Below, piece after piece: positions 1 through 15,253 of a stretch of 64,000 bases of DNA (positions are counted from its first letter, which is position 1; the number at the start of each line of letters is the position of its first letter). A program made the translations under genes and the position numbers. Source of the stretch: Ancylobacter mangrovi (GTDB taxonomy: Bacteria; Pseudomonadota; Alphaproteobacteria; Rhizobiales; Xanthobacteraceae); contig NZ_JANTHZ010000002.1 of assembly GCF_024752355.1 (NCBI RefSeq), positions 248,001-312,000 on the forward strand. Direction: 5' to 3'. Under the pieces are notes generated by a model, which was given only the letters and a program-made list of their open reading frames with translations, made no database searches and had not been told where the DNA came from.

Positions 1-548
1 GGCTGTTCCTCGGCATGCTGGTGGGCGCCTCGCCGACCGTCTATCGCGGCCTCTATCCGATCATGGTCGGCCTCAACTCGATCCCGAAGGTGGCAATCGT
101 CCCGATCCTCGTGATCTGGTTCGGCATCGGCACGATTCCGGCCATCCTGACCGCGTTCTCGATCGCCTTCTTCCCGATCATGGTGAACGTGGCGACCGGC
201 CTCGCCACCATCGAGCCGGAGCTTCAGGACGTGCTGCGCGCGCTCGGCGCCTCGAAGTGGCAGATCCTGCGCAAGGTCGGCCTGCCGCGCGCCATGCCGT
301 TCTTCTTCGCCTCGCTCAAGGTCGCCATCACCCTCGCCTTCATCGGCGCGGTCGTCGCCGAGACGGTCGCCTCCGATGTGGGCATCGGCTACCTCATGAT
401 GTCGGCGAGCGCGCGTTTCGACGTGCCGCTGGTGTTCGCCGGCCTGCTGGTGATCGCCCTCATGGGCGTCGTCATGTACGAGGCCTTCGCCATGGTCGAG
501 CGCCGCGTGACCTTCTGGGCGACGCGCTCCAGCCAGTCCGCCTCCTGA
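1..548 (+). CDS. ABC transporter permease, Tau/Ssu type (5' partial)
   Basis: Inner-membrane permease subunit of a nitrate/sulfonate/taurine-type ABC importer. The frame is open from base 3, so the start lies outside the window and only about the last 180 residues are seen. Visible are several hydrophobic segments and the cytoplasmic EAA loop (LRALGASKWQILRKVGLP), which contacts the ATPase. The downstream CE4 gene begins 26 bases after the stop and a binding-protein gene follows, so the three probably form one operon whose ATPase lies upstream of the window. The family is clear; the substrate is not. It is separate from the two-permease system at 11809-13346. Confidence 0.9.
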   Translation, partial: LFLGMLVGASPTVYRGLYPIMVGLNSIPKVAIVPILVIWFGIGTIPAILTAFSIAFFPIMVNVATGLATIEPELQDVLRALGASKWQILRKVGLPRAMPFFFASLKVAITLAFIGAVVAETVASDVGIGYLMMSASARFDVPLVFAGLLVIALMGVVMYEAFAMVERRVTFWATRSSQSAS

Positions 549-573
549 AAATTCAGTAAAGCAAAGTCGTACC

Positions 574-1491
574 ATGTCACTCGTGCTGCCCAAACATAAC
601 AGATACGCCTATTCGCCGATCTATGAGCGCCCCGATTACTCCTGGCCGCAGGAGAAGCGGCTGGCCTTCTGCGTCGTCACCAATCTCGAGGTCTACGCCT
701 ACCGCAAGGGAACCGGCTGGGACCCGGCCAAGATCGGCGAGCCGCAGAACCAGCGCAATTACGCCTGGCGCGACTACGGCAACCGCGTCGGCGTCTGGCG
801 CCTGTTCGACCTCTTCGACGAGCTCAAGCTGCCCGCCGCCCACAACATCAACTCGCTGCTCTATGACGATCACCCGCAGATCTTCGAGCGCATCCGTGCC
901 CGCGGGGACGAGCTCGTCGCCCACGGCCGGACCAATGCCGAGCGTCAGGGCGACCTTTGGGAACTCGACGAGGCGCGCCTTATCGACGACGTGACCAGCG
1001 CCATCCGCGCCAAGGAAGGCGCCGCCCCCAAGGGCTGGATGGGGCCGGCCGCCTCGGAGAGCAACACGACGCCCGACCTGCTCAAGGAAGCCGGCTACAA
1101 ATATGTCATGGACTGGCCGGCCGACGATCAGCCCTTCTGGCTGAAGACGCGCTCCGGGCCGCTGCTGTCCGTTCCCTATCCGGCGGAACTCAACGATTCC
1201 GCCTCCATCATCCACCGGCGCAACACGGCCGATCAGTTCGCCGACATGATCGTCGCCCAGTTCGACGAAATGATCGAGCAGTGCGAGAGCCAGCCGCTGG
1301 TGATGACGATATCGCTGCACGCCTTCGTCATCGGCCAGCCGTTCCGCATGCCGGCGCTGCGGCGGGCCCTGCGTCACTGCGTCGAGCATCCCAGGCGCGA
1401 CCGCGTCTGGTGGACGACCCCGGGAGCCGTGGCGGACCATTGCTACGCGCTGCCGGCGGGCATCGTTCCCGGCGAAGGCCCGTCCCTGTGA
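574..1491 (+). CDS. PuuE-like CE4/polysaccharide deacetylase-family protein
   Basis: Protein of 305 residues with the NodB/CE4 fold pattern of the allantoinase PuuE subgroup. The usual catalytic Asp-Asp pair is absent; the equivalent strand reads VVTNLEVYAY (about residues 34-43). A single His sits in VAHGR (residue 117), where metal-dependent NodB enzymes have HxxxH. A late SLHAF motif is kept. There is no signal peptide, so it is probably cytoplasmic. PuuE-type enzymes open cyclic amides without a bound metal, so amide or ring hydrolysis of an imported compound is a reasonable inference; polysaccharide as substrate is unlikely. It sits between a permease and a binding-protein gene and is about the size of the homologous gene at 2577. 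Confidence 0.8.
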   Translation: MSLVLPKHNRYAYSPIYERPDYSWPQEKRLAFCVVTNLEVYAYRKGTGWDPAKIGEPQNQRNYAWRDYGNRVGVWRLFDLFDELKLPAAHNINSLLYDDHPQIFERIRARGDELVAHGRTNAERQGDLWELDEARLIDDVTSAIRAKEGAAPKGWMGPAASESNTTPDLLKEAGYKYVMDWPADDQPFWLKTRSGPLLSVPYPAELNDSASIIHRRNTADQFADMIVAQFDEMIEQCESQPLVMTISLHAFVIGQPFRMPALRRALRHCVEHPRRDRVWWTTPGAVADHCYALPAGIVPGEGPSL

Positions 1492-1526
1492 AATCTCCCT
1501 CCACTCCATCGAAGAAAAGGACCGCC

Positions 1527-2564
1527 ATGCGCGCTCACGTCACCGCAGCCCTTCTCGCTGGCATCTGCATGCTGTCGCCCGCCTCGGCGCAAACCGTCGA
1601 GAAGCCCGATGTGAAGATCTCGTTGGACTGGGCATTCCAGGGCCCGCAGTCCGTCTTCCTCTATGGCGCCGCCCTCGACGAGTTCAAGAAGCGGGGCATC
1701 GACGCCACCATCGACCGCGGCAGCGGCTCCGGCGACACCATCACCCGTGTCGCCTCCGGTGCGTACCAGTTCGGCTGGGCCGACATCGCCACCATGGTCA
1801 AGTTCAACGCCCAGAACCCCGGCAAGGAGCTGGTGGCCGTCTATGTGACGGGCGGCAACTCGCCGCTCGCCGTCGTCACCGTGAAGGGTCGCGGCATCGA
1901 TACGCCGAAGGATCTCGCTGGCAAGACGCTGACCGCCACCGCCGGCAGCGCCGCGCTGGCGCTGTTCAACATCTTCGCGAAGGACGCCGGCTTCGATCCC
2001 AAGTCGGTCACCTGGAAGCAGGTGAGCGGCGCCCTGCGCGAGCCGATGATGGTGCGCGGCGAGGCGGACGCGGCGGCCGGCTTCACCACCTCGAGCGTCA
2101 TGAGCGTCGTCGAGCTGGGCGTGAAAAAGGACGACGTCGAGGTCTTCAAGTACAACGACTACGGCCTGAAGCAGTACGGGACGGCGCTGCTGGTGCGTCC
2201 CGAATTCGCCAAGGAGAACCCGAAGACCGTCGCCGCGGTGGTCGCTGCCGTGAACGCCTCGTTCATGGACGCGATCCGCAATCCCAAGGCGTCGGTCGAG
2301 GCGATCAAGGCGCGCGACTCGCTCGCCAATCTCGACATCGAATGCGTGCGTCTGGTGGACGGGCTGCGCGATCTCACCCTCACCGACGAGTTCAAGACCA
2401 AGGGTATCTCCTCGGTGGACGACGCCCGCATCGCCGCCTCCATCCAGGAGATCAAGGACGCCTACGAGTTGAAGGCGGACATTCCGGCCGACAAGGTGTT
2501 CACCGACGCCTACCTCCCGGCGCAGGCGGAGCGCATGCCCCCCGCGCTCGGTAGCTGCGAGTGA
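1527..2564 (+). CDS. ABC substrate-binding protein, NMT1/THI5 type
   Basis: Periplasmic binding protein of 345 residues for the permease encoded at the left edge. I chose the ATG at 1527 because it is followed by a signal peptide (MRAHVTAALLAGICMLSPASAQ); the open frame extends further upstream without such a sequence. The mature protein begins with the family's typical pattern (VKISLDWAFQGPQSVF) and contains RGSGSGDTITRVASG, which recurs almost exactly in the binding protein at 33285. Family members bind small N- or S-containing molecules (taurine, nitrate, pyrimidines); the ligand here cannot be told. It sits between two PuuE-like genes, so its ligand is probably their substrate or precursor. 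Confidence 0.88.
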   Translation: MRAHVTAALLAGICMLSPASAQTVEKPDVKISLDWAFQGPQSVFLYGAALDEFKKRGIDATIDRGSGSGDTITRVASGAYQFGWADIATMVKFNAQNPGKELVAVYVTGGNSPLAVVTVKGRGIDTPKDLAGKTLTATAGSAALALFNIFAKDAGFDPKSVTWKQVSGALREPMMVRGEADAAAGFTTSSVMSVVELGVKKDDVEVFKYNDYGLKQYGTALLVRPEFAKENPKTVAAVVAAVNASFMDAIRNPKASVEAIKARDSLANLDIECVRLVDGLRDLTLTDEFKTKGISSVDDARIAASIQEIKDAYELKADIPADKVFTDAYLPAQAERMPPALGSCE

Positions 2565-2576
2565 CGAGAGAGACAA

Positions 2577-3464
2577 ATGAGCGATGACATCGGCGCGACG
2601 CTTCGCGCCCGAGCCCCCTACACGCCCATCCACAAGCGGCCCCCGCTGCATCTGCCCGGAGATGCACGGGTTGCCGTGTGGACGATCGTCAATGTCGAGA
2701 ACTGGTCACCCGCCGCGCCGATGCCGCGCACCGTGCTGCCCCCTCCCATGGGGCAGCCTCTCCTTCCGGACGTGCCGAACTGGGCCTGGCACGAATACGG
2801 GATGAGGATCGGCTTCTGGCGGTTCCTCGAAACGCTGTCCTCGCGAGGGCTCAAGGCAAGCTTCGCCGTCAACGGCACCGCTTGCGAGATCTATCGCGAG
2901 GCGTGCGAGGCCGCGCACGAGGCGGGCTGGGACTTCATGGGGCATGGCTTCATCCAGCGTCCCATGCACCGGGTCGAGGACCAGCGCCAGGCGATCGCCG
3001 ACACGATCGAGGCGATCCGCAAGATGACCGGGGCGCCGCCGCGCGGCTGGGAAAGCCCCGGCCTCACCGAGACCGACGAGACGCTCGACCTGCTCGCGGA
3101 AGCCGGGATCGAATATGTGGCGGACTGGGTGCTCGACGATCAGCCCATTCCGCTGAAGACCCGCACCGGCAACATCGTCTCGGTGCCCTACACGGTCGAG
3201 ATCAATGACGTGGTGATGAGCGCGGTGCAGCTCCAGCCGTCGGACGAGATCCTGCGGCGCGGACGCGACCAGTTCGACCGCCTGTATCTCGACGGCGAGA
3301 AGGCGCCGCGCGTCATGGCGATCACCATCCACCCCTATCTGACCGGGGTGCCGCACCGGATCAAGTATCTGGAAATGCTCTACGACTACATCCTCGGCCA
3401 CGACAAGGTCGTGATGTGGACGGGCGCGGAGATCCTGGACTGGTACCGCGGCCAGACGGCCTGA
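2577..3464 (+). CDS. PuuE-like CE4/polysaccharide deacetylase-family protein
   Basis: Protein of 295 residues, a second PuuE-type CE4 homologue starting 12 bases after the binding-protein gene, with GAGAGA upstream of the ATG. The NodB Asp pair is replaced by VNVENW (residues 38-43). GHGFIQRPMH gives His123 and His131, a wider spacing than the canonical HxxxH. A late TIHPYLTG motif is present. There is no signal peptide. It diverges clearly from the 574 gene, so this is not a recent duplication; the two may act on successive intermediates or form one enzyme. A cyclic-amide or C-N hydrolase role is inferred from the PuuE family and from the transporter context. Confidence 0.8.
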   Translation: MSDDIGATLRARAPYTPIHKRPPLHLPGDARVAVWTIVNVENWSPAAPMPRTVLPPPMGQPLLPDVPNWAWHEYGMRIGFWRFLETLSSRGLKASFAVNGTACEIYREACEAAHEAGWDFMGHGFIQRPMHRVEDQRQAIADTIEAIRKMTGAPPRGWESPGLTETDETLDLLAEAGIEYVADWVLDDQPIPLKTRTGNIVSVPYTVEINDVVMSAVQLQPSDEILRRGRDQFDRLYLDGEKAPRVMAITIHPYLTGVPHRIKYLEMLYDYILGHDKVVMWTGAEILDWYRGQTA

Positions 3465-3774
3465 ACGGTAGAACGGCGATCCCGAACCAGACGGATCGGG
3501 ATCGCCACCTCCCCCGCATCGAAAGACGCCGGCGCCGCGCCCTCGTGCCCCGCTTCGGCGCCATCGACCCCGCGCGTCCTTCCCCGACCGCCGCCCCGCA
3601 AATTGCACCCGCCTGCGAGGAGCGCCGCGGCTCCGCTGGGGTGCCGAAATTCTATGCATCGACTGATTTAATAAGTCGCTTGACTGAATTTATGGAATTG
3701 GCACGCTTGGCGGCATTGAGCGATCCATCCCGGCAGGCTCCCGCGACGCCTCCGGCAACGAAGGAGCGGCATCG
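3465..3774. other. intergenic region carrying the motif upstream of the 3775 operon
   Basis: About 310 bases without a supported gene. The first two thirds are GC-rich. From about 3645 the sequence turns AT-rich and contains the repeated 21-bp motif listed separately. AAGGAG lies just before the GTG start at 3775. I see no convincing terminator for the upstream operon. Confidence 0.6.
3670..3690. promoter_or_regulatory. putative TetR operator, copy 1
   Basis: A 21-base sequence beginning AATAAGTCGCTTGACTGAAT is found identically at 10996-11016. It contains the inverted repeat AGTC-GCTT-GACT. Both copies lie a short distance upstream of importer genes, and a TetR gene lies inside the second unit, so a TetR operator is the simplest reading. 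The embedded TTGACT could also be a -35 element, but I find no matching -10 box at the usual distance. Confidence 0.6.
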
Positions 3775-4800
3775 GTGGGCATCAAACGAGTACTTGCGGG
3801 CCTCGCCCTGGCGGCGGCCGTTGTTCCGGCCCTGCTTCAGGCTCCCGCCCTGGCGGACGAGCCGCTGAAGATCCGTATCGGATGGGGCAGCATGCCGGCG
3901 CACCTCATCCCCGCGCTCTATCAGGACACGTCGGCGCTCAAGCATTACGGCAAGAGCTACGTCGTCGAGCCGCAGCAGTTCAGCGCCAGCACGCCGCAGA
4001 TCACGGCGCTCGCCTCCGGCGACATCGACTTCGCCGCCTTCTCCCCGTCCGCCTTCGTGCTCGGCGTCGTCAACGCCAATCTCGACCTGCAGGTCGTGGC
4101 CGACATCATCCAGGACGGCAAGCCCGGCCACTATTCGCAGTCGATCTATGTGAAGGCGGATTCGCCGATCAAGACGGTGCAGGACCTGAAGGGCAAGACC
4201 GTCGGCGTGAACGGCCTCGGATCCGCCGTCGACAACGCGCTGCGCGCCATGCTCGCCAAGAACGGCATGAACCCGAAGACCGATGTGCGCGTGGTCGAGA
4301 CCAGCTTCGCCAACATCCTGCCCATGCTGAACGACGGCAAGATCGACGCCGGCCCGATCCAGCAGCCGATGGCGAGCAAGCTCGTCAAGGAAGGCAAGTA
4401 CCGCCTCCTGTTCAATTCCGCCGATGCCATGGGCCCGACCCAGTTCGTCGCCCTCGTCGGGCGCAAGTCGTTCCTCGACGCCCACCGCGCCCAGTTGATG
4501 GACTTCTTCGAGGACCACGTCCGGGCGATCCGGTGGATCATGGACCCGAAGAACCGCGACAAGGCGCTGCCGATCATCGCCAAGGCCTCGGTGCGCCCGG
4601 TCGAGCAGATGAGCTACCTGTTCACCGACATCGACTATTACCGCGATCCCTGGGGCCTGCCCGACATCGCCGGCCTGCAGCGCGCCATCAACGTTTCCGC
4701 CGAGCTCGGCGTGGTGCCGAAGACGATCGAGGTCAGCCCCGACCATGTCGACCTGTCCTTCGTCGAGGAGGCCAAGAAGCGCATCGAGGCGAACCCCTGA
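3775..4800 (+). CDS. ABC substrate-binding protein, NMT1/THI5 type
   Basis: Periplasmic binding protein of 341 residues. The start is GTG, with AAGGAG eight bases upstream, and is followed by a clear signal peptide (VLAGLALAAAVVPALLQAPALA). The mature protein shows the class II binding-protein pattern with QDLKGKTVGVNGLGSAVDNALR in the ligand-cleft region. No ATPase or permease gene is adjacent. The same upstream motif precedes the ATPase-permease-permease unit at 11055-13346, so I infer that these form one transporter encoded in two transcription units. It leads the operon C45 hydrolase, oxidoreductase, LVIVD protein, CobW. The ligand is unknown. Confidence 0.87.
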   Translation: MGIKRVLAGLALAAAVVPALLQAPALADEPLKIRIGWGSMPAHLIPALYQDTSALKHYGKSYVVEPQQFSASTPQITALASGDIDFAAFSPSAFVLGVVNANLDLQVVADIIQDGKPGHYSQSIYVKADSPIKTVQDLKGKTVGVNGLGSAVDNALRAMLAKNGMNPKTDVRVVETSFANILPMLNDGKIDAGPIQQPMASKLVKEGKYRLLFNSADAMGPTQFVALVGRKSFLDAHRAQLMDFFEDHVRAIRWIMDPKNRDKALPIIAKASVRPVEQMSYLFTDIDYYRDPWGLPDIAGLQRAINVSAELGVVPKTIEVSPDHVDLSFVEEAKKRIEANP

Positions 4801-4808
4801 GCCGGTCC

Positions 4809-5939
4809 ATGGCCCCGATCCAGCAGCAGATGCCGGTCCTCGACGTAGGCGAGGACCCCTTCGAACGCGGCGAGACGCACGGACGCGTCTTCGCCGCCTC
4901 GGTCGCGAGCAATCTCGAGACCTATCTGCGCCGCTTCGAGGCTTCGGGCCTCGACCGCGACGCGGCGCGGGCGGAAGGCGCGCGCTGGCTCGCGGCCATG
5001 CAGCGCCAGAACGCGGACTATTGCGCCGAGATGGCGGGCATAGCCAAAGGTTCGGAGCGCAGCGAGGCGGAGATCGCGCTTCTCAACGCCCGCTACGAGC
5101 TCGCCTTCACCCTGTTCGGCAAGGACGCGCAGGCCCGCGAGGACCTGCTTTCCGTCGGCCCCGACGGCTGCACCACCTTCGGGCTGCTGCCCGAGGTGGC
5201 GGCGAACGGCCACACATGGCTCGGCCAGAACTGGGACTGGCTCGAAGGCGTGCACGGCCATTGCCTCGTGCTGCGGGCGACCCGCCGCCACGCGCCGAGC
5301 TTCCTGTGCCTGACCGAAGCCGGCATCGCCGGCGGCAAGATGGGCGTCAACGAATGCGGTGTGGGGCTGGTCGAGAACGGCCTCGCCTCCAGCCGCGACG
5401 GGGCCAACCCCTTCCAGAAGCCGTTCCACATGCGCTGCCGCGAGGTGCTCGATGCCGGGCGCTTCGACGACGCGCTGCGCCCGATCCTCGACACGAAACG
5501 GACCTGCTCGGCGAATTTCGTGGTCGGCCATGCCGATGGCGAGATCATCGATATCGAGACCAGCCCGGACCACGTCACCTATCTCTATCCGGACGGCGGC
5601 ATCGTCACCCATTCCAATCACTTCGTGGGCACCGGCCACGGCGAATCGCAAATGGAAAAGGTCGGCCCGAGCACCCTTTTCCGCGCCGCCCGGCTGAAGC
5701 GCCTGCTGGCGATGAAGGGCGGCAAGCTGGCGCCGGACGACATGCAGGCGGCCGCGCGCGACACGTTCGGCGCTCCCAACGGCATCTGCCGTTCGCCCGA
5801 CCCCCGCCTGCCGGAAGCCAAGCGGACCATGACCGCCGCCTCGGTGCTGATCGACCTCGGCGCGCGCACCATGCATGTCGCCAACGGGCCGCCGACCGAT
5901 TTCGCCTACCACCCGGTCCCGCTCGATCCCCGGGGCTGA
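4809..5939 (+). CDS. C45 family autoproteolytic acyltransferase/hydrolase
   Basis: Ntn-hydrolase of 376 residues related to isopenicillin-N acyltransferase. Family members cleave themselves before an internal Cys, which then becomes the N-terminal nucleophile for amide hydrolysis or acyl transfer. The expected site is Gly-Cys in DGCTTFGL (Cys121), followed by the typical GHTWLGQNWDW segment. No secretion signal is seen, so it is probably cytoplasmic. I chose the ATG at 4809, eight bases after the previous stop; the longer open frame upstream overlaps the binding-protein gene. Beside an importer and CE4 amidase-like genes it probably removes an acyl group from the imported compound. The substrate is unknown. 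Confidence 0.83.
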   Translation: MAPIQQQMPVLDVGEDPFERGETHGRVFAASVASNLETYLRRFEASGLDRDAARAEGARWLAAMQRQNADYCAEMAGIAKGSERSEAEIALLNARYELAFTLFGKDAQAREDLLSVGPDGCTTFGLLPEVAANGHTWLGQNWDWLEGVHGHCLVLRATRRHAPSFLCLTEAGIAGGKMGVNECGVGLVENGLASSRDGANPFQKPFHMRCREVLDAGRFDDALRPILDTKRTCSANFVVGHADGEIIDIETSPDHVTYLYPDGGIVTHSNHFVGTGHGESQMEKVGPSTLFRAARLKRLLAMKGGKLAPDDMQAAARDTFGAPNGICRSPDPRLPEAKRTMTAASVLIDLGARTMHVANGPPTDFAYHPVPLDPRG

Positions 5940-5985
5940 GCGTGGTCCTTTTCTTCCCGACACTGAAAGCTTGCTAAGGAGACGC

Positions 5986-7173
5986 ATGGCGACCCGCTCC
6001 ATCCGCATCGTCATGGACGGCGTGACCGGCCGGCTCGGACAGAACCAGCACCTCGCGCGCTCGGTCATGTCGATCGCCCGCGACGGGGGATTGCCGCTGG
6101 CGAATGGCGACCGGCTGATGCCCGAGCCGATCCTGCTCGGCCGCAACCCGGACAAGCTGGCCGCGCTCGCGCTCGCCCATGGCGGCCTCGAATGGACGAC
6201 GGACGCCGCCCGTGTCCTCGCGGACCCGTCGGTGGCGATCTATTTCGACGTGGCGGCGACCGCCGGCCGCGTCGAGCGCGCCCGGCGCGCCATCGCGGCG
6301 GGCAAGCACATCTATCTGGAGAAGCCGATCGCGGGCGATTTCGCTTCCGCGGTCGGCCTCGCTTCCGCCGCCTCCAAAGTCGGGGTGAAGAACGGCGTGG
6401 TGCAGGACAAGCTGTACCTGCCGGGCCTCGCCAAGCTGGCGCTGCTGCGCGACACCGGGTTCTTCGGGAAGATCCTTTCAGCCCGGCTCGATTTCGGCTG
6501 GTGGGTGTTCGACGGCACGCTGCGCCCGGCCCAGCGCGCGAGCTGGAACTACCGCAAGGCGGCGGGCGGCGGGCTGGTCCTCGATATGTTCCCGCACTGG
6601 CGCTACATCATCGACCACCTCGTCGGGCCGATCCGCGCGGTGAGCTGCCGCTGCGCCACGCGCGTGCCGCGCCGCATCGACGAGAACGGGCAATCCTACG
6701 AGGTCGATGTCGAGGACGAGGCGGCCGCCACCTTCGAGCTCGAGGGCGGCGTGCTGGTGCAGGTCGGCAGCTCCTGGGCCACCCGCGTGAAGCGCGACGA
6801 CCTGTTCCAGCTCCAGATCGACGGCACCGGAGGCTCGGCCGTCGCCGGCCTGCACGACTGCCGCATCCAGCCGGCCGCCGCGACCCCCAAGGCATTGTGG
6901 GACGTCGACGTGCCGCCGCGCACCGATTTCGACGCCGAATGGCTGGACGTTCCCGATGTCGGCCCGCATGTGAACAGCTACCGCCGGGGGTGGGAACTCT
7001 TCCTGCGCCATGTCATGGAGGGGACGCCCTTTCCCTCGCCGCTGATCGAGGGCGCCAAGGGCGTGCAACTGGCCGAGGGCTGCTACCGCAGCGACGCCGA
7101 ACGGCGCTGGATCGAACTGCCGCCCCTCGACACCGAAGACGTCACCTCCTTTTCCAGATTAGTGCAGGCGTGA
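5986..7173 (+). CDS. Gfo/Idh/MocA family oxidoreductase
   Basis: NAD(P)-dependent dehydrogenase-type protein of 395 residues. AAGGAG four bases before the ATG at 5986 fixes the start. The N-terminal Rossmann strand reads MDGVTGRLGQNQH, so the glycine loop is an unusual GxTGRxGxxQ rather than GxGxxG. EKPIAG follows, the family's typical EKP motif, with a C-terminal substrate domain after it (for example GGGLVLDMFPHWRY). It is closely related to the gene at 14105, with the same LPxxxGDxLMPxPI segment and the same late GVQLAE motif. The dehydrogenase chemistry is inferred from the family; the substrate is probably a polyol-, sugar- or amide-derived compound. Confidence 0.85.
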   Translation: MATRSIRIVMDGVTGRLGQNQHLARSVMSIARDGGLPLANGDRLMPEPILLGRNPDKLAALALAHGGLEWTTDAARVLADPSVAIYFDVAATAGRVERARRAIAAGKHIYLEKPIAGDFASAVGLASAASKVGVKNGVVQDKLYLPGLAKLALLRDTGFFGKILSARLDFGWWVFDGTLRPAQRASWNYRKAAGGGLVLDMFPHWRYIIDHLVGPIRAVSCRCATRVPRRIDENGQSYEVDVEDEAAATFELEGGVLVQVGSSWATRVKRDDLFQLQIDGTGGSAVAGLHDCRIQPAAATPKALWDVDVPPRTDFDAEWLDVPDVGPHVNSYRRGWELFLRHVMEGTPFPSPLIEGAKGVQLAEGCYRSDAERRWIELPPLDTEDVTSFSRLVQA

Positions 7174-7174
7174 A

Positions 7175-8380
7175 ATGAGCGACACCTACGGCTTTCGCCT
7201 CCTCGGCGAGGATCTGCTTTCCGGCTTCGGCGCCGTCGGCGAAGGCATGTCGATGCAGCTGACCGGCGACAAGCGGCGGATCATGTGGCTGGCCCATGAA
7301 GGGCCGCCGAAGAACTTCACCGGCGTCGACGTGAGCGATCCGCGCCGGCCGAAGGTCATCGCGCAGACCGACATGCCGCACGGCAAGGTGCGCTCGAATT
7401 CGCTCGAAGTGTGCGGCGACCTGCTGGCCGTCGCCTACCAGACCGTCGAACCCGGCATGACGCCCGCCGGCATTGAGCTGTTCGACATCTCCGTGCCGGA
7501 AAATCCGCGCTCGATCTCGTTCTTCGATTGCTCGGGCCCCTATTCGCGCGGCGTGCACTGCCTGTGGTTCGTCGACGGGCGGACCATCCACTTCGCCGGC
7601 GGCGCGGCGGATTTCCAGCCGCACGACCAGAAGGACGACCAGATCTACCGCATCCTCGACGTGGCGGACCCCGCGCGGCCGCACGAGATCGGGCGCTGGT
7701 GGATGCCGGGCACCCGCGTCGGCGACGACGCGCCCCGGCCCGAGCGCCTGCCGATCGATTCCGGCTTCCGCGCCCACAACACCAATGTCTACCCCGACCG
7801 GCCCGACCGGGCCTATGTCGGCTATCTCGACGGCGGCGCCTTCGTGCTCGACATCGCCGACATGGGCAATCCGCGCCTCGTCTCGGCCTGGAATCCCCAC
7901 CCTCCCTATCCGGGCTTCACCCATACGGTGCTGCCGCTGTTCTCGCGCGACCTGCTTATCGTCTCGGACGAATGCGTGCGCGACGACGGCAAGGACTGGC
8001 CGAAGCTGACCTGGGTGGTGGATGCCCGGCGCGAGACCAATCTGGTGCCCATCGCCACCCTCCCGCTGCCGGCGGTGGAAGAATACGGCCCCCGCGGCGG
8101 GCGCTACGGCTCGCACAACCTGCATGAGAACCGCCCGGGCGAGGTCTCGTTCAAGTCCGACACGCTGATCTTCGGCACCTATTTCAATGGCGGCCTGCGC
8201 GTGCACGACCTCTCGAACCCGCTCCAGCCGAAGGAGGTCGCCGCCTTCGTGCCGCCGGCCCCGGCGGGCTCGCGCGTGCCGGCGGTGCAGATCAACGACG
8301 TGTTCGTCGACGAGAACATGCTGGTCTATGCCGGCGAGCGGCAGACGGGCGGCCTCTACATCCTCGAGCCGACCTTCTGA
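7175..8380 (+). CDS. LVIVD-repeat beta-propeller-like protein
   Basis: Protein of 401 residues starting one base after the previous stop, so it is translationally coupled. It contains repeated strand units of the LVIVD type, such as GVDVSDPRRPKVIAQTDM, LFDISVPENPRSISFFD and VLDIADMGNPRLVSAWN, which predict a beta-propeller. Such proteins are usually secreted or surface proteins, but no signal peptide is visible here. Several conserved His and Asp residues (RAHNTNVYPDRPDRAYVGYL, GSHNLHENRPGE) suggest a metal or substrate site rather than a pure scaffold. Within this operon it may be an enzyme such as a lactonase or cyclase; that is speculation. Confidence 0.72.
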   Translation: MSDTYGFRLLGEDLLSGFGAVGEGMSMQLTGDKRRIMWLAHEGPPKNFTGVDVSDPRRPKVIAQTDMPHGKVRSNSLEVCGDLLAVAYQTVEPGMTPAGIELFDISVPENPRSISFFDCSGPYSRGVHCLWFVDGRTIHFAGGAADFQPHDQKDDQIYRILDVADPARPHEIGRWWMPGTRVGDDAPRPERLPIDSGFRAHNTNVYPDRPDRAYVGYLDGGAFVLDIADMGNPRLVSAWNPHPPYPGFTHTVLPLFSRDLLIVSDECVRDDGKDWPKLTWVVDARRETNLVPIATLPLPAVEEYGPRGGRYGSHNLHENRPGEVSFKSDTLIFGTYFNGGLRVHDLSNPLQPKEVAAFVPPAPAGSRVPAVQINDVFVDENMLVYAGERQTGGLYILEPTF

Positions 8381-8386
8381 TCCGCC

Positions 8387-9427
8387 ATGGCGCCGGTTCC
8401 GGTCACCGTCCTCACGGGCTTCCTCGGCAGCGGCAAGACCACGCTGCTGAACCGGCTGCTCGCCGCCCCCGACATGGCGGAGACGGCGGTGATCATCAAC
8501 GAATTCGGCGCCATCGCGCTCGACCATCTTCTGGTCGAGCAGGCGATCGAGAACACGATCACGCTGCAGAGCGGCTGCGTGTGCTGCACCATACGGGGCG
8601 ATCTCGTCGACACGCTGCTCTCCCTCCACGAGCGCAGCGCGCGCGGCGAGATACCGCGCATCGCCCGCGTCGTGGTGGAGACGACCGGCCTCGCCGAACC
8701 CGGCGCGATCATCCAGACCCTCACCGAGGATCGGGTCTTGACGCCGCTGTTCCGCCTCCACGGGGTGGTGACGACGCTCGACGCGGTCAATGGCGCGGCG
8801 CAGCTCGCCCGCTATGCCGAGGCGGTGAAGCAGATCGCGGCGGCGAGCCTCGTCCTGCTCACCAAGACCGACCTCGCGGGCGAGGGAGAGGTCGCCGCGC
8901 TCAAGGAGGACGTGGCCCGGCTCAATCCGACCGCCTTGATCGAGGCGGCGGTCTCCGGCGACATCGCGCCCGACCGGGTCTTCGACGGCCCGGCATGGGA
9001 ACCCGGCGATCACGACCCCCAATGGCTGCCGGCCACTCCGTTCGGAAACGCCCGCCCGGTGGCGGTGGCGCCCAGCCATCGCGGGCGCATGCGCTACCGC
9101 GACACGCCGACCGTCGAAGCCGTCTGCCTCACGCTCGACGATCCCGTCAGCCCCGAGGCGCTGTCGCTCTGGCTGTTCTCGCTGGTCTCGCTGCGCGCCG
9201 CCGACCTGCTGCGGCTGAAGGGCCTCGTGAACCTCGCCGGGCATGGACAGCCGGTGGCGGTGCACGGCGTCCAGCATCTCATCCATCCGCTGCGCGAACT
9301 GGCCGACTGGCCGGACGACGACCGTCGCACCCGGCTGGTGGTCATCGGCCGCGACCTGCCCGCGGCCGGATTGAGGGAAAGCCTGATGGCGGCCGTCCAC
9401 GCCCATCCGGCGCGCGAGGCCGCCTGA
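8387..9427 (+). CDS. CobW/COG0523-family GTPase, probable metallochaperone
   Basis: G3E GTPase of 346 residues starting six bases after the LVIVD gene. The Walker A loop [11 protein letters not shown] is at residues 11-21, the metal-binding CxCC motif in GCVCCTI has Cys64, Cys66 and Cys67, and TKTD is the guanine-specificity motif. The C-terminal half is the CobW_C domain. Family members deliver Zn, Fe or Co to a client enzyme, often one encoded next door. Likely clients here are the metal-type CE4 protein at 10124 or another protein of this locus. That link is inferred from position only. Confidence 0.88.
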
Positions 9428-9432
9428 TGCGG

Positions 9433-10062
9433 TCAGAAGCTCACGCGCGGCAGCAAGGGTCCGCAGGGCAGCACTTCCCCGGCCCAGAAGGGCTCGCCGG
9501 TCCTCAGGATCGCCGCGAAATCCTCCGATCCCGTGATGTCGAGCACCGCGACGCCGGCACGCGTCAGCGCAGCCCGTCGTTCCGCGTCCCGGCGCGGGCT
9601 CATGGTGCCGCGGCCGACAAAGGCGACGCAGCGCCCGCCACCGGGAAAGAACGCGACGTCGACACGCTCGGCGGCGTGTCCGGAAATCGGCAGATGCGCA
9701 CGCGGCAGCGGCCGCGGGGCCGAGAACCGGAAGTCGCGGTAGCCGAACAGCCCGCGATAGGGCGCGAGCCGCGCCTCGAGTTCGGTCCGCGCCGCCTCCA
9801 CGCTGGCATCCACCCAGGCGAAGTAGTCCTTCACCAGCCGCCGGGCCGCGGCGTTCCAGGGGCCGCATTCGGCCTCGATCGCGGCCGAAAGCCCCTTGAA
9901 GGCGTCGTTCTCCGCGTCGAGCGGATCGCCGCTCCAGCGCACGGAATTGAGCCGCCAGCCGCGGCCGTCGGCATCGGGCGTCGCCGCCGGCGCCGTGTCG
10001 GATCCGGTGTCGGTGTCGCTCGCATAGGCCACGCGCAGCAGGCGCGGTGTCGTCACATCCAT
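9433..10062 (-). CDS. unrecognised protein, 209 residues
   Basis: I do not recognise this gene. It is read on the minus strand, convergent with the CobW gene (five bases between stops) and divergent from the CE4 gene at 10124. It has no signal peptide, membrane segment or cysteine-rich motif apart from isolated Cys residues. A central segment (AAARRLVKDYFAWVDASVEAARTELEARLAPY) predicts long amphipathic helices; the second half contains beta-like stretches (VDVAFFPGGGRCVAFVGRG) and ends DFAAILRTGEPFWAGE. It is the only minus-strand gene in the first 19 kb, and codon use looks ordinary for the window. Confidence 0.65.
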   Translation of the reverse strand: MDVTTPRLLRVAYASDTDTGSDTAPAATPDADGRGWRLNSVRWSGDPLDAENDAFKGLSAAIEAECGPWNAAARRLVKDYFAWVDASVEAARTELEARLAPYRGLFGYRDFRFSAPRPLPRAHLPISGHAAERVDVAFFPGGGRCVAFVGRGTMSPRRDAERRAALTRAGVAVLDITGSEDFAAILRTGEPFWAGEVLPCGPLLPRVSF

Positions 10063-10123
10063 TCGTCACATCCGCGGCGGAGCTGATCCGCCGCCCTTTC
10101 CCGTCGCTTCAGGAGGCTGTTCC

Positions 10124-10960
10124 ATGTCGCGCCACATCGTCTGCCTGACATTCGACTTCGACACCGCCTCCGGCTTCATCGCCCGCGGCCTGGCGACCCC
10201 CACCCCGCTCTCGCGCGGCGAGTTCGGCGCCCGAGTCGGGGCCGGCCGCATTCTCGACCTTTGCAAGCGGCACGCCATACCCACCACCTGGTTTACACCG
10301 GGCTTCACCATCGAGAGCTTCCCGAAGGAATGCGAGGCGGTGGTCGCCGGCGGCCATGAGATCGCCCATCACAGCTGGGCGCATGTGCCCCCGGCGATGC
10401 AGTCGCGCGAGGAGGAGGAGGCGGACATGGTTCGCGCCATCCAGTCCATCCGCTCGCTGACCGGCGCCGCGCCGCGCGGCTATCGCTCGCCCTCCTGGGA
10501 CCTCAGCGCCAACACCATCGACCTGCTCGTCAAGCACGGCTTCGACTATGACAGCAGCCTGATGGGTGACGACTACGTCCCCTACAAGGCGCGCAATGGC
10601 GACGCGGCCAAGGTGGGCGAGGTGCTTCATTTCGGCACCGAGAGCGGGCTGATAGAAATGCCCATCAGCTGGACCATGGACGACCACCCGCATTTCGAAT
10701 TCTACCGCACGCCCGATTTCCTGATGCCGGGCCTTCAGTCCCCGCGCCTGGTGATGGAAAGCTGGAAGGACGAGTTCCGCTACATGCGCCAGAGCAGCGA
10801 CTGGGGCGTGCTCACCTACACCATGCATCCCTATGTGATCGGCCGCGGCTACCGGATGCTCGCGCTGGAGGACCTCGTCGAATTCCTCGCCCGGGAAGGC
10901 GCCGTGTTCATGACCATGGCCGAGGCCGCCAGGGAAGCGCGCCTGCGGCTGGAGGCGTGA
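10124..10960 (+). CDS. CE4 polysaccharide deacetylase-family hydrolase with intact metal site
   Basis: Protein of 278 residues with a strong AGGAGG ribosome-binding site. Unlike the CE4 genes at 574 and 2577 it keeps the metal-site pattern: TFDFDT (Asp11, Asp13) and HEIAHHSWAH, which gives HSxxH at His83-His87. Later APRGYRSPSW and YTMHPYVIG complete the usual motif order. It lacks a signal peptide, so a cytoplasmic C-N hydrolase acting on a small amide or imide is more likely than a cell-wall deacetylase. It lies between the CobW operon and the TetR-linked ABC operon. A metal-dependent mechanism is expected from the motifs; the substrate is unknown. Confidence 0.85.
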   Translation: MSRHIVCLTFDFDTASGFIARGLATPTPLSRGEFGARVGAGRILDLCKRHAIPTTWFTPGFTIESFPKECEAVVAGGHEIAHHSWAHVPPAMQSREEEEADMVRAIQSIRSLTGAAPRGYRSPSWDLSANTIDLLVKHGFDYDSSLMGDDYVPYKARNGDAAKVGEVLHFGTESGLIEMPISWTMDDHPHFEFYRTPDFLMPGLQSPRLVMESWKDEFRYMRQSSDWGVLTYTMHPYVIGRGYRMLALEDLVEFLAREGAVFMTMAEAAREARLRLEA

Positions 10961-10995
10961 GGACAGGTGCCGCCAACATAGGCGATCGATGATTA

Positions 10996-11016
10996 AATAA
11001 GTCGCTTGACTGAATT
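10996..11016. promoter_or_regulatory. putative TetR operator, copy 2
   Basis: Second identical copy of the 21-base motif at 3670-3690, with core AGTC-GCTT-GACT. It lies about 40 bases upstream of the ATPase gene that starts at 11055, in an AT-rich pocket of an otherwise GC-rich stretch. Because the TetR gene at 13343 is in the unit that follows, autoregulation is likely. Confidence 0.62.
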
Positions 11017-11054
11017 GTTGCCCGCGGCAGTATCGGTCCCGAAAGGCCTTCGCG

Positions 11055-11828
11055 ATGAAAACGGCTGCCGTCGCCATCAACCGCCTGTCCTACAGCTACG
11101 CGGCCTCCGACGGGCGCAGCGTGCTTGCCCTGTCGGACGTGTCGCTCGTGGTCGAGCAGGGCTCGTTCGTCTCCCTGCTCGGACCGTCGGGCTGTGGAAA
11201 GTCGACATTGCTCTATCTGATCGGCGGCTTCCTGAAGCAGGAAGGCACCGCGATCCATGTCGACGGCGTACCGGTGACCGGCCCCGGCCCGGATCGCGGC
11301 ATCGTCTTCCAGCAATTCGCGCTGTTCCCCTGGCGCACCGTGCTCGGGAACGTCGTCTACGGCATGGAGAAGCAGCGCGTTCCAAGGGCCGAACGGCTGG
11401 ACCGCGCCCACAAGCTGATCCGCGACGTCGGTCTCGCCGGCTTCGAGGCGAGCTATCCCTCGCAGCTCTCCGGCGGCATGCGCCAGCGCGCGGCCATCGC
11501 CCGCACGCTGGCGGTCGACCCGGCCATCCTGCTGATGGACGAACCGTTCGGCGCGCTCGACGCCCAGACGCGCGGCATCATGCAGGAGCAGCTGAGGCAG
11601 ATCTGGCAGGCCACCGGCAAGACGGTGATTTTCGTGACGCATGACGTGCGCGAGGCGGTCTATCTTTCACAGAAGGTGGTCGTCATGTCGAAGCGGCCCG
11701 GCACGATCAAGGAGATCATCGACACCTCGTTCGAGGGAAGCGAGGCCGATGCACGGGTGCAGAGCGCGGTCGAGGACATCTGGCAGCAGGTGAAACTGGA
11801 GTTCGCCGATGCGCCCGCTCACGCTTGA
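11055..11828 (+). CDS. ABC transporter ATP-binding protein, Tau/Ssu type
   Basis: ATPase of 257 residues. Visible in order are Walker A (GPSGCGKST, residues 43-51), the Q-loop ([12 protein letters not shown]), the signature LSGGMRQR, Walker B ([12 protein letters not shown]) and the switch His (VTHDVREA). This motif set matches nitrate/sulfonate/taurine importers. AAGG precedes the start, and the gene overlaps the next permease by 20 bases. It energises the two permeases that follow, probably with the binding protein encoded at 3775. Confidence 0.92.
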
Positions 11829-12582
11829 GAAGCACCCAGTGCTGGGCGGGATCGTCCGCTACAGCCCCCTGCTGCTGCTCGCCGCCGCCTGGGAGGCGAG
11901 TTCGCGTCTCGGGCTCGTCAACGAATACGCCCTGCCGCCGCTGTCGACCGTGCTGGTGGCCTGGTTCCAGTTCCTCAAGGACCCCTCGTTCTACTACCAC
12001 GCGGGCATGTCGCTGATGCGCGCGGCGACCGGCCTGTCGCTGGCGATCGTGCTGGGGGTGACGCTTGGCATCTCGATGGCGAGCTTCCGCTGGGTGGAGG
12101 CGACCTTCGGCCCCATCGTGCAGATGTTCTACCCCATGCCCAAATCAGCGCTGATCCCGCTGACCATACTGTGGTTCGGGCTGGGCCACCTGTCGAAGAT
12201 CTTCCTCATCTTCCTCGGCTGCCTTCTGCCGATGACGCTGTCGAGCTTCAACGGGGCCCGCGGAACCGACAAGGTGCTGCTGTGGTCCGCCTCCAGCCTC
12301 GGCGCCTCGCGCTGGAACCGCATCCGCGACGTGGTGTTCCCGGCGAGCCTTCCCTCGATCATGGCGGGCATGCGCACGGCGCTGGCGCTCGCCTTCGTGC
12401 TCTTCGTCTCGTCCGAGCTCATCATCGCCAATGAGGGCCTCGGCTATCTCATCCGCATGACCGGCGACGGCGGCCAGTATCCCGCGATGTTCGCCGTGGT
12501 GCTCACCGTCGTGTCGATGGGCTTTCTCGCCGACCGGCTCCTGATTGCGATCACGCACCGGGTGCTCAGATGGCGCGCCTGA
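11809..12582 (+). CDS. ABC transporter permease, Tau/Ssu type (first of two)
   Basis: Inner-membrane permease of 257 residues with about six hydrophobic segments. The EAA-loop region reads [21 protein letters not shown]. It starts inside the ATPase gene and overlaps the next permease gene by 13 bases, so the three are coupled. Most Tau/Ssu systems have a single homodimeric permease; two adjacent, clearly different permeases suggest a heterodimeric channel here. Confidence 0.9.
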
Positions 12583-13346
12583 ACGTCGCCTGGCTCAAGC
12601 GCCTGCTGCCGATCATCGGGCTGCTCGTCATCTGGCAGGCGGTCGCCGCGTCCCATGTCACCAGCGCCTTCCTGCTGCCCTCCGTCGTGACGGTGGCGGA
12701 GCGCGTGTGGAGCGACATCGCCAGCGGCACCCTCGCGGGCAAGGTCGGCCTGACGCTCTATCGCGCTTTGGCCGGCTTCCTCATCGCGACCGTCGCCGGC
12801 GTCACCGTCGGCCTGTCGATGTCGATCCTGCCGGTGGTGCGGTGGTTCTTCGACCCCCTGATCTCGGTCGGCTTCCCCACGCCCAAGATCGCGCTGCTGC
12901 CGATCTTCATGCTCTGGCTCGGCCTCGGCGACGAGACCAAGATCGCGATGATCACCTTCGCCTGCTTCTTCGCCATCACGACCAATGCCTATGCCGGGGC
13001 GCTCGGCGTCGAGCGCGCGTTCATCTGGTCGGCACAGATGCTCGGCGCGTCGCGGCGGCAGATCCTGACGGACATCATCCTGCCGGCGGCCACGCCGCAG
13101 ATCCTCACCGGCATGCAGATCGCCCTGCCCGTCTCGCTGATTTCCACCCTGGTCACGGAAATGATCATGGGCGGCGGCGGCCTCGGCGGGGGGCTTCTGG
13201 AAGCCTCCCGCTACGCCGACTCGCCGGGCGTGTTCGCCGCGATCGTGGAGATCGCCGCCGCTGGCGCTATCGTGATCAATGTGATGTTTGCGTTGCGCAA
13301 GCGCCTGCTGCGCTGGCACGAGGAAACGCAGACCCGCGATCAATGA
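12570..13346 (+). CDS. ABC transporter permease, Tau/Ssu type (second of two)
   Basis: Inner-membrane permease of 258 residues, partner of the preceding gene. The EAA-loop region reads WSAQMLGASRRQILTDIILP, and hydrophobic segments run along most of its length. A Gly-rich turn (GGGGLGGGLLEAS) follows the loop. Its stop overlaps the TetR start by four bases (ATGA), tying transporter and regulator into one transcript. Confidence 0.9.
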   Translation: MARLNVAWLKRLLPIIGLLVIWQAVAASHVTSAFLLPSVVTVAERVWSDIASGTLAGKVGLTLYRALAGFLIATVAGVTVGLSMSILPVVRWFFDPLISVGFPTPKIALLPIFMLWLGLGDETKIAMITFACFFAITTNAYAGALGVERAFIWSAQMLGASRRQILTDIILPAATPQILTGMQIALPVSLISTLVTEMIMGGGGLGGGLLEASRYADSPGVFAAIVEIAAAGAIVINVMFALRKRLLRWHEETQTRDQ

Positions 13347-14062
13347 GCGAACGGAACATGAGCGACATCACCCATCTCGACCGCAGGCGTGCCGCAGGCG
13401 CCCAGACCCGCCAACGGATCGTCGAGGTCGCCGAGAGCCTGTTCGCCAGCCAGGGCTACGATGCGGTCGGGTTGCGTGACATCGTCCGCGTCGCCGAGAT
13501 CAACTCGGCGGCGGTTCACTATCATTTCGGCACCAAGGAAGCGCTGTTCCTCCACATTCTTCGCCTGCGCGCGGAGCCGATCGCCTCCGCCCGCGCCCAG
13601 GCTTTCCAGGCGCTGCGGGCGAGAGGGCCCCTCGTCCTGTCGGAGGTCATCGAAGCCTTTCTGCGCCCCGCGCTCGATCAGCCGCTGCACGAGCCGCGCC
13701 GGGCCAACTACGCCGAGCTTCGCGCCCGGCTGTCGGGCGAGCAGGAACCGGCGGTGCGGGCGCTGCTGGCGGAAATCTTCGACCCGTCGACCCGCATGTT
13801 CCTCGCCGCCATCCGCGACTGCCTGCCCGAGCTGCCGGAAAGCGAGATCTATTACCGCTTCCACTTCCTGCTCGGCACCATGGTCTACGCCATGGCCAAT
13901 CCCGGTCGCATCCAGGATCTGAGCCTCGGCGACACCAATCCCTTCGACCTCGATGAGGTGCTGGCTCATCTGGTGCCCTTCATCGAGGCGGGATTCCGCG
14001 CCGCGCCCCTGCCGGCGGCCCGGGCCCGGAAGCGCCCGGCCGCTCGCAAGAAGCAGCCCTGA
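13343..14062 (+). CDS. TetR-family transcriptional regulator
   Basis: Regulator of 239 residues. The N-terminal helix-turn-helix is typical (TRQRIVEVAESLFASQGYDA, then AVHYHFGTKEALFLHIL). The C-terminal half is helical and ends in a basic tail (ARARKRPAARKKQP). The ATG at 13343 overlaps the permease stop as ATGA; a second in-frame ATG lies five codons later. Family members are usually repressors released by a small ligand, here probably the transported compound. The repeated motif at 3670 and 10996 is the best candidate operator. Confidence 0.88.
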   Translation: MSERNMSDITHLDRRRAAGAQTRQRIVEVAESLFASQGYDAVGLRDIVRVAEINSAAVHYHFGTKEALFLHILRLRAEPIASARAQAFQALRARGPLVLSEVIEAFLRPALDQPLHEPRRANYAELRARLSGEQEPAVRALLAEIFDPSTRMFLAAIRDCLPELPESEIYYRFHFLLGTMVYAMANPGRIQDLSLGDTNPFDLDEVLAHLVPFIEAGFRAAPLPAARARKRPAARKKQP

Positions 14063-14104
14063 CATCCAAGAAGCCGCAACGAGTTCACAGCAACCGAGGA
14101 CATC

Positions 14105-15253
14105 ATGGCAACGCATCGCGTCGGCATCATCATGCATGGTGCGACAGGCGGGCTCGCTCGCAAGCAGCATGTCGGCGCGCTCGCCGCGATCCGGAAGGAA
14201 GGCGGCCTTCCGCTGCCATCGGGTGACGTCCTCATGCCCGACCCGATCTTCGTGGGGCGCAGCGCCGAGCGGCTCGCGGCGCTGGTGGATGAGGTCGGCT
14301 TCGGCCGAACCGGCACCGACCTCGCCGCGGCGCTGGAGAATGCCGAGGACACGGTCTTCTTCGATGCCGCCGCGACTGCGCTGCGCTTCGACGTGCTGTC
14401 GAAGGCGATCGATGCCGGCAAGCACATCTATTGCGAGAAGCCTATCGCCGGCTCCACCGCGCAGGCGATGGAGCTCGTCCATCGGGCGGAGAAGGCCGGC
14501 GTCAAGCACGGCACGGTGCAGGACAAGATGTTTCTGCCGGGCTTTGCCAATCTTGAGATGGTGACGCGTTCCGGCTTCCTGGGCCGCATCCTCGAGGTCC
14601 GGCTGGAGATGGGGCGCTGGATCTTCGACGGGACGCTGCAGGACGGCGGGCGCCCGAGCTGGAACTACCAGAGCGCGGGAGGGGGCGGCCTGATCCTCGA
14701 TATGTTCCCCCATTGGCGCTACATGCTGGAGGGCCTGATCGGCCCGCTCGCGGCGATAAGCTGCCGCTGGCGGACCCAGATCCCGCGCCGCGTCGACGAG
14801 GCCGGCCGGCCCTATGACGTGGATGTGGAGGATTGCGTCTTCGCGCAGGTGGAGTTCGAGAACGGCGTCATCGGCTCGGTCAATTCGAGCTGGACCACGC
14901 GCCCGCGCCGGGACGCCGCCATCGTCGTCCAGATCGACGGCACCGAAGGCTCGGCCGTCGCCGGCCCGCAGATCTGCTACACCCAGGCGGGGGTCAATTC
15001 GCGCCGCTTCAAGCCCTCCGCCGACAGCCCGACGCCGGAAGACTTCTACGACGACTGGCAGCCGGTGCCGCAGAATACGGCGCCGAGGAACGGCTACCGG
15101 ATGGGCTGGGAGCGTTTCCTGCGCTACGTCGCGGCGGGAGACGACGCGTATCCCTATTCGCTGAGGCAGGGGGTGAAGGGCGTCCAGCTCGCCGAGCTCG
15201 CCTATCGCAGCCACGAAGAGCGCCGCTGGATCGACATTCCGGCCCTCGCCTGA
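14105..15253 (+). CDS. Gfo/Idh/MocA family oxidoreductase (paralogue of 5986)
   Basis: Dehydrogenase-type protein of 382 residues with GAGG upstream of its ATG. The Rossmann loop reads HGATGGLARKQH, the same unusual GxTGxxxxxQH pattern as at 5986, and it carries the EKPIAG motif. Both proteins share GGGLxLDMFPHWRY, RVDE/RIDE and GVKGVQLAE-like segments, so they are paralogues of roughly half-identical sequence by eye. Both lie in units preceded by the shared motif, so they may catalyse two oxidations in the same pathway or form a heteromer. It follows the TetR gene by 42 bases and ends the operon. Confidence 0.85.
   Translation: MATHRVGIIMHGATGGLARKQHVGALAAIRKEGGLPLPSGDVLMPDPIFVGRSAERLAALVDEVGFGRTGTDLAAALENAEDTVFFDAAATALRFDVLSKAIDAGKHIYCEKPIAGSTAQAMELVHRAEKAGVKHGTVQDKMFLPGFANLEMVTRSGFLGRILEVRLEMGRWIFDGTLQDGGRPSWNYQSAGGGGLILDMFPHWRYMLEGLIGPLAAISCRWRTQIPRRVDEAGRPYDVDVEDCVFAQVEFENGVIGSVNSSWTTRPRRDAAIVVQIDGTEGSAVAGPQICYTQAGVNSRRFKPSADSPTPEDFYDDWQPVPQNTAPRNGYRMGWERFLRYVAAGDDAYPYSLRQGVKGVQLAELAYRSHEERRWIDIPALA

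Follow-up and report, generated by a model that had tools for sequence, protein, structure and literature searches.

A catabolic locus of Ancylobacter mangrovi arranged around two conserved modules, one of them holding a recurrent LVIVD-CobW gene pair

The stretch considered here comprises the first 15,253 nucleotides of a 64,000-nt window of Ancylobacter mangrovi DNA (positions 248001-312000 of contig C15 of the 4.9 Mb genome) and it carries genes for ATP-binding cassette (ABC) importers with two substrate-binding proteins, three CE4-family hydrolases, a C45 hydrolase, two Gfo/Idh oxidoreductases, an LVIVD protein, a CobW GTPase and a TetR-family regulator. The question that this locus raises is whether these genes constitute one pathway, as was proposed in a preliminary description in which an N-acylated or cyclic amide compound would be imported, hydrolysed in steps and oxidised. 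When the genes were scanned against Pfam and NCBIfam, the families named in that description were borne out, and the two Gfo/Idh genes are paralogues as it stated, being 50% identical to each other. One gene, X209 (9433-10062, minus strand), had been overlooked. What we find is that two conserved modules, here called A and B, are surrounded by assorted catabolic genes, and that the part of interest is the core of module B, the LVIVD and CobW genes, which are the most informative pair in the locus and to which the preliminary description assigned no role.

The LVIVD-CobW core and module B

The LVIVD gene (7175-8380, plus strand; COG5276/MtrY-like) matches PF08309 at 20.8 bits against a cut-off of 20.2, and on the same strand it is followed by the CobW gene (8387-9427; PF02492 at 1.6e-45 and PF07683 at 6e-23). 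With the LVIVD protein as query 68 loci, nearly all titled Alpha- or Betaproteobacteria, were retrieved, and neighbouring genes in these named loci were counted at a threshold of 42% identity and 55% coverage. CobW was present in 45 of the 68 loci and lay within 500 bp of the LVIVD gene in 43; among the 40 loci that include 3 kb to either side it was found in 24 and not in 16. When the presence of CobW was placed on a tree of 69 LVIVD rows (50 with CobW, 15 without and 4 unlabelled), the label changed 3 times compared to 13.6 times on shuffling, and a single betaproteobacterial branch, with 18 rows of which 2 have CobW, took in at least 12 of the 15 that have none. Likewise, in a tree of 52 CobW proteins encoded within 4 kb of an LVIVD gene and 22 others (from ten genomes) there were 3 changes compared to 19.3 on shuffling, the shuffles in both trees addressing clustering only. 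The genome of A. mangrovi itself has three LVIVD-CobW pairs, in one of which (contig C18) CobW is on the opposite strand, and a fourth LVIVD match of 37% is on contig C20. In an order-wide survey of 150 genomes, in which this genome is counted, LVIVD matches occurred in 24 (E 1e-20) and those of at least 58% identity in 5, its own genome included. Eight of the named loci (L106, L110-L112, L116, L119, L120 and L128) carry the title Bordetella parapertussis or Chitinophaga pinensis in their metagenome-assembled genome (MAG) records; these names look doubtful, and the identities of their LVIVD genes are within the range of betaproteobacterial MAGs.

Module B consists of an NMT1-type ABC set, X209, the LVIVD protein and the CobW GTPase. 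The ABC set is made up of the NMT1_2/SsuA-like binding protein SBP2 (3775-4800; PF13379, 2.1e-20), the ATPase ABC2 (11055-11828; PF00005, 2e-28) and the permeases Perm2 (11809-12582) and Perm3 (12570-13346), both matching PF00528, all on the plus strand. These four genes were found together with X209, LVIVD and CobW in seven loci (L065, L067, L068, L069, L070, L072 and L121), and L071, where SBP2 is cut at the end of the locus, and L123, which is cut after ABC2, carry the remaining genes of the module. Counted singly, SBP2 relatives of 51-55% were present in 7 of the 68 named loci, ABC2 in 11, and Perm2 and Perm3 in 9 each; in the survey of genomes SBP2 was matched in 5 of 150 (E 1e-40). X209, a conserved protein of 209 residues with no Pfam match, has relatives in 21 of the 68 loci, and in L065, L067 and L068 its gene follows that of the second permease and shares its orientation, while LVIVD-CobW faces X209. 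Over 17 sequences R37, Y80, F81, A115, L119, P120 and other residues of X209 are invariant, and its model is of the alpha/beta type with weak PD-(D/E)XK-like matches; to call it a nuclease on these weak fold matches was rejected.

Other importers are also found at LVIVD loci. Genes for Bug-like binding proteins, grouped as one linked cluster of 84 whose middle member was judged by eye, were present in 40 of a set of 76 loci, over which looser neighbour matches were also counted, and in L070 and L035 PF03401 is matched by TctC-type proteins. In five plasmid regions with LVIVD relatives of 35-39%, the relative comes directly after an ABC importer gene in three, one short gene lies between the two in the fourth, and in the fifth it follows a GntR gene and an enolase-superfamily gene.

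A second region of the A. mangrovi genome, on contig C19, has within about 18 kb relatives of SBP2 (57%), ABC2 (54%), Perm3 (50%), CE4b (64%), LVIVD (70%) and CobW (48%). Upstream of its SBP2-ABC set is a BKACE gene (L034:2794-3726) that scored 547.3 bits, against a cut-off of 430, as a 3,5-dioxohexanoate:acetyl-CoA acetone transferase, and a gene that resembles it by appearance alone is upstream of the SBP2-ABC set in genome G058 (L044:2498-3442). Near the LVIVD-CobW copy on C19 there is a histidinol-dehydrogenase-family gene that passes TIGR00069 (L034:16034-17392), and a protein looking like it, again by appearance alone, is encoded near the copy in L071 (4914-6233). A triacetate-type substrate was set aside, the BKACE gene that would suggest it being in the C19 region and outside the window. 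A sulfonate substrate was also set aside: SfnB genes are near two rhizobial plasmid relatives, the SsuA-family scores are under the cut-off, and nothing in the window is decisive.

Fold and candidate metal site of the LVIVD protein

The AlphaFold2 model of the LVIVD protein (predicted local distance difference test score, pLDDT, 92.6) has 28 strands, which we read as seven blades of a beta-propeller. Its homology with the Sphingobium TCM1 phosphotriesterase (Sb-PTE) is seen in the top Foldseek match of the model (5hrm, 1.4e-14), in the matches of the LVIVD hidden Markov model within PDB, which were 5hrm and 5ioj only, and in an hhalign comparison of the two that gave 96.3%. The metal ligands of Sb-PTE, which we take to be E201, H258, H317, H389, E407 and H475, stand at those positions in the Sb-PTE of region L136 and do not differ in L137. 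Five residues of the LVIVD protein, H128, H201, H250, E266 and H314, fall at or close to five of these six positions. All five are within or beside strands of the model, and each was retained in all of 69 close relatives and all of 26 distant ones, where identity falls to about 28%. For E201 no counterpart was found in the alignment, so that the six ligands are not all matched and the LVIVD protein is not filed as a member with Sb-PTE. PF08309 was matched at E 0.01 by 51 of 52 LVIVD members. We propose that the LVIVD protein is a cytosolic metal-dependent hydrolase.

The CobW protein has the CobW and CobW_C domains and a CXCC motif (GCVCC), all three features by which COG0523 metallochaperones were recognised here, and it is predicted to be the metal-insertion partner of the LVIVD protein. 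A part in cobalamin synthesis was rejected, as it scored 120.9 bits with TIGR02475 where 332.1 are required, and no cobalamin-synthesis family was matched among the scanned window genes around it. According to PMC2770081, it is not obvious for most COG0523 GTPases which clients they serve.

The explanation that we propose for the two modules as a whole, to which we give about an even chance, is as follows. A small compound would be imported through the Tau/NMT1-type ABC system of module A and its amide or imide bond opened by the PuuE-like CE4 enzymes. A compound imported through the second, NMT1-type system of module B would be hydrolysed in the cytosol by the LVIVD protein. For this it would use a metal site that is built from one Glu and four His residues and is related to the binuclear one in Sb-PTE, and the adjacent COG0523 CobW GTPase would deliver or insert the metal. 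X209 would be an accessory, and the C45 protein, CE4c and the two Gfo/Idh oxidoreductases would be local additions that probably process products.

The main rival, and a serious one, is that the LVIVD protein carries or stores metal and that module B serves metal homeostasis, with CobW passing the metal inside the cell. The gene for AztD, a beta-propeller that binds zinc, is found together with those of an ABC importer, often with CobW-family genes nearby (PMC6689063), and members of COG0523 subfamily 5 are encoded in clusters with WD40-propellers and with znuABC (PMC2770081). A propeller beside CobW is therefore not unprecedented, and since in module B, just like in AztABCD, propeller, ABC importer and CobW genes are together, these observations speak for this rival. 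However, the AztD propeller is eight-bladed and the protein predominantly periplasmic (PMC6689063), whereas the LVIVD model is read as having seven blades. The N-terminus of the window LVIVD protein has no strongly hydrophobic segment: by a simple hydropathy test, applied as export-signal test to the window protein only (the 52 aligned rows mostly start at match residue 3-6), its best 12-residue mean was 1.03, compared to 2.40 and 2.72 for the two binding proteins and 0.53-1.86 for other window proteins. Thus it has no clear export signal of the kind that an AztD-like protein would carry. The binding protein of AztABCD is ZnuA-type (cluster A-I), whereas both binding proteins in the window match NMT1-type models, SBP2 being SsuA-like, and relatives of the LVIVD protein are also found near TctC-type or sugar-type importers. 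Taken with the evidence on both sides, we consider metal handling unlikely, although it is the alternative to be taken most seriously.

Module A, the local additions and the case for one pathway

Module A is composed of a GntR regulator, a Tau-type ABC set, PuuE-like CE4 enzymes and an NMT1 binding protein. The permease gene Perm1 (1-548, also given as 15-548, plus strand; PF00528, 1.9e-30) is cut at its 5' end by the edge of the window, and this is why the first ABC set looked partial in the preliminary description; in the genome it is complete, with the full Perm1 gene at L001:17781-18548 preceded by the ABC1 ATPase and the GntR/FCD regulator, both outside the window (L001:16270-18548 for the whole). 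The remaining genes, all on the plus strand, are CE4a (574-1491; PF01522), SBP1 (1527-2564, with a longer frame from 957; PF09084, 4.2e-29) and CE4b (2577-3464; PF01522). For CE4a and CE4b the best-scoring model was that of the allantoinase PuuE, TIGR03212, at 110.7 bits (6.5e-32) and 121.8 bits (2.7e-35), respectively, and PuuE is also the best PDB match of CE4a (3cl6, 1.2e-25, over residues 23-292). Unlike PuuE, they are far under the curated cut-off of 424.6 and were rejected as allantoinases. Inspected by eye, neither shows the His that comes second in the CE4 metal motif; PuuE is, according to PMC10967932, an enzyme that does not depend on metal. CE4a relatives of 55-56% adjoin ABC1 and Perm1 relatives in genomes G055, G004 and G092, and in G065, G132, G101 and G019 CE4a relatives adjoin SBP1 relatives of 32-34%. 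CE4b has relatives of 64% both on contig C19 and in L071, and in the survey CE4a was matched in 23 and SBP1 in 33 of 150 genomes (E 1e-40). Module A fits the earlier idea of amide hydrolysis, which is fair for this left part; the locus, however, consists of two modules and not of one pathway.

That one compound is imported and undergoes stepwise hydrolysis by CE4 and C45, with the Gfo/Idh proteins oxidising it and LVIVD and CobW being helpers or bystanders, is a reading we find doubtful. It gains from the arrangement of the locus, in which nearly all genes are on one strand with short gaps as the preliminary description noted, and from G058, where about 25 kb hold both modules A and B, with relatives of ABC1 (65%), CE4a (77%), SBP1 adjoining CE4a (66%) and CE4b (74%) along with SBP2 (55%), LVIVD (73%) and CobW (45%). 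In L064 a 68% relative of SBP1 is about 2 kb from LVIVD. In G055 (L047:8679-18309) genes for a Peripla_BP_6 binding protein, a C45 relative (50%), a CE4 protein, a transporter and HyuA/HyuB-type hydantoinase are in a row, which puts C45 beside CE4 and hydantoinase genes. Against it, CE4a, CE4c, C45, Gfo1 and Gfo2 were each found in none of the 68 named loci at the threshold used, and CE4b was found in one, the only one of the 68 where a CE4 relative accompanies the LVIVD-CobW pair; SBP1 was present in 1 and TetR in 2, and looser matches among the 76 loci numbered 6 for Gfo1, 3 for SBP1 and 8 for TetR. Moreover, with its two ABC systems and two regulators the locus would seem to handle two substrates or more. 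A conserved single pathway was therefore set aside, the full set being present in none of the 68 loci. The preliminary description expected the families to co-occur elsewhere and named their failure to do so as what would tell against it; this failure was seen for the whole set, whereas two sub-modules do recur.

C45, CE4c and both Gfo/Idh proteins thus do not accompany the LVIVD-CobW core as conserved partners. The C45 gene (4809-5939, plus strand, as are all the following) encodes an AAT-like N-terminal nucleophile (Ntn) hydrolase (PF03417, 3.1e-14) that passes the NF040521 cut-off of 85 with 244.4 bits (1.7e-72). Gfo1 is at 5986-7173 (longer frame 5875-7173; PF22725, 5.5e-21). CE4c (10124-10960; PF01522, 1.9e-17) is a NodB-fold hydrolase in which an HSxxH motif was recognised by eye, and its best PDB match is HpPgdA (3qbu, 5.2e-53). 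The TetR-family gene (13343-14062; PF17939, 7.7e-32, and PF00440, 3.7e-14) is followed by Gfo2 (14105-15253; PF22725, 4.8e-21; 3oqb, 1e-118). In the survey C45 was matched in 5 (E 1e-40), CE4c in 7 (1e-60) and Gfo2 in 26 (1e-60) of 150 genomes.

NMT1-type binding proteins are common in this genome, as it has 29 NMT1 matches, and a further one, 31% identical to SBP1, is at window positions 33315-34325. No tRNA genes or Rfam matches were found in the window.

That the LVIVD protein is a non-catalytic propeller such as an importer scaffold or sensor is quite improbable, since, although WD40 propellers make up most of the structural neighbours listed for its model, Sb-PTE outranks them in Foldseek E-value and in sequence identity and is the sole profile match, and the five His/Glu residues stay invariant among distant relatives.

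Comparison with known systems

COG0523 GTPases such as CobW, YjiA and the nitrile hydratase activator share with the window CobW both domains and the CXCC motif, and the neighbour of this CobW is an LVIVD propeller where subfamily 5 has WD40-propellers. In the open-licence papers searched no link of LVIVD to CobW or to a phosphotriesterase was found, and neither COG5276 nor LVIVD was found as a term in the main text of PMC2770081, whose supplement holds the neighbour lists. The recurrent pair together with the modelled invariant candidate site offers a direct test of whether the GTPase loads the propeller and with which metal.

MtrY, a COG5276 protein of the enterobacterial methionine-salvage cluster, is the second system with which the LVIVD protein can be compared. 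An LVIVD protein encoded on a Klebsiella plasmid beside mtnK/mtnA (L168:5869-7110) fits MtrY and has the same five residues. The mtrY gene comes directly after ABC importer genes; unlike the window LVIVD, MtrY is in a methylthioribose context, the two being about 38% identical, and CobW is not among the 11 annotated features of its region. In the paper naming it MtrY is called 'a mystery' and no function is assigned there (PMC3228920). We suggest, tentatively and at somewhat less than an even chance, that the COG5276/LVIVD proteins, MtrY included, make up a so far unrecognised group of metal-dependent propeller hydrolases of the cytosol, encoded alongside small-molecule importers, and that one branch has a dedicated COG0523 metal inserter, in which case this methionine-salvage gene would be explained and the COG0523 family would gain a new client enzyme.

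A third comparison is with Sb-PTE, the haloalkylphosphorus hydrolase of 5hrm and 5ioj. Like the LVIVD model it is a seven-bladed propeller, and the two align sequentially over most of the LVIVD protein; unlike it, Sb-PTE has 583 residues compared to 401, E201 is not shared by the two, and in L136, the one Sb-PTE region covered, none of the 8 annotated features is a CobW gene. If the LVIVD proteins are indeed hydrolases, a pollutant-degrading phosphotriesterase would be tied to a natural family from which it could have arisen.

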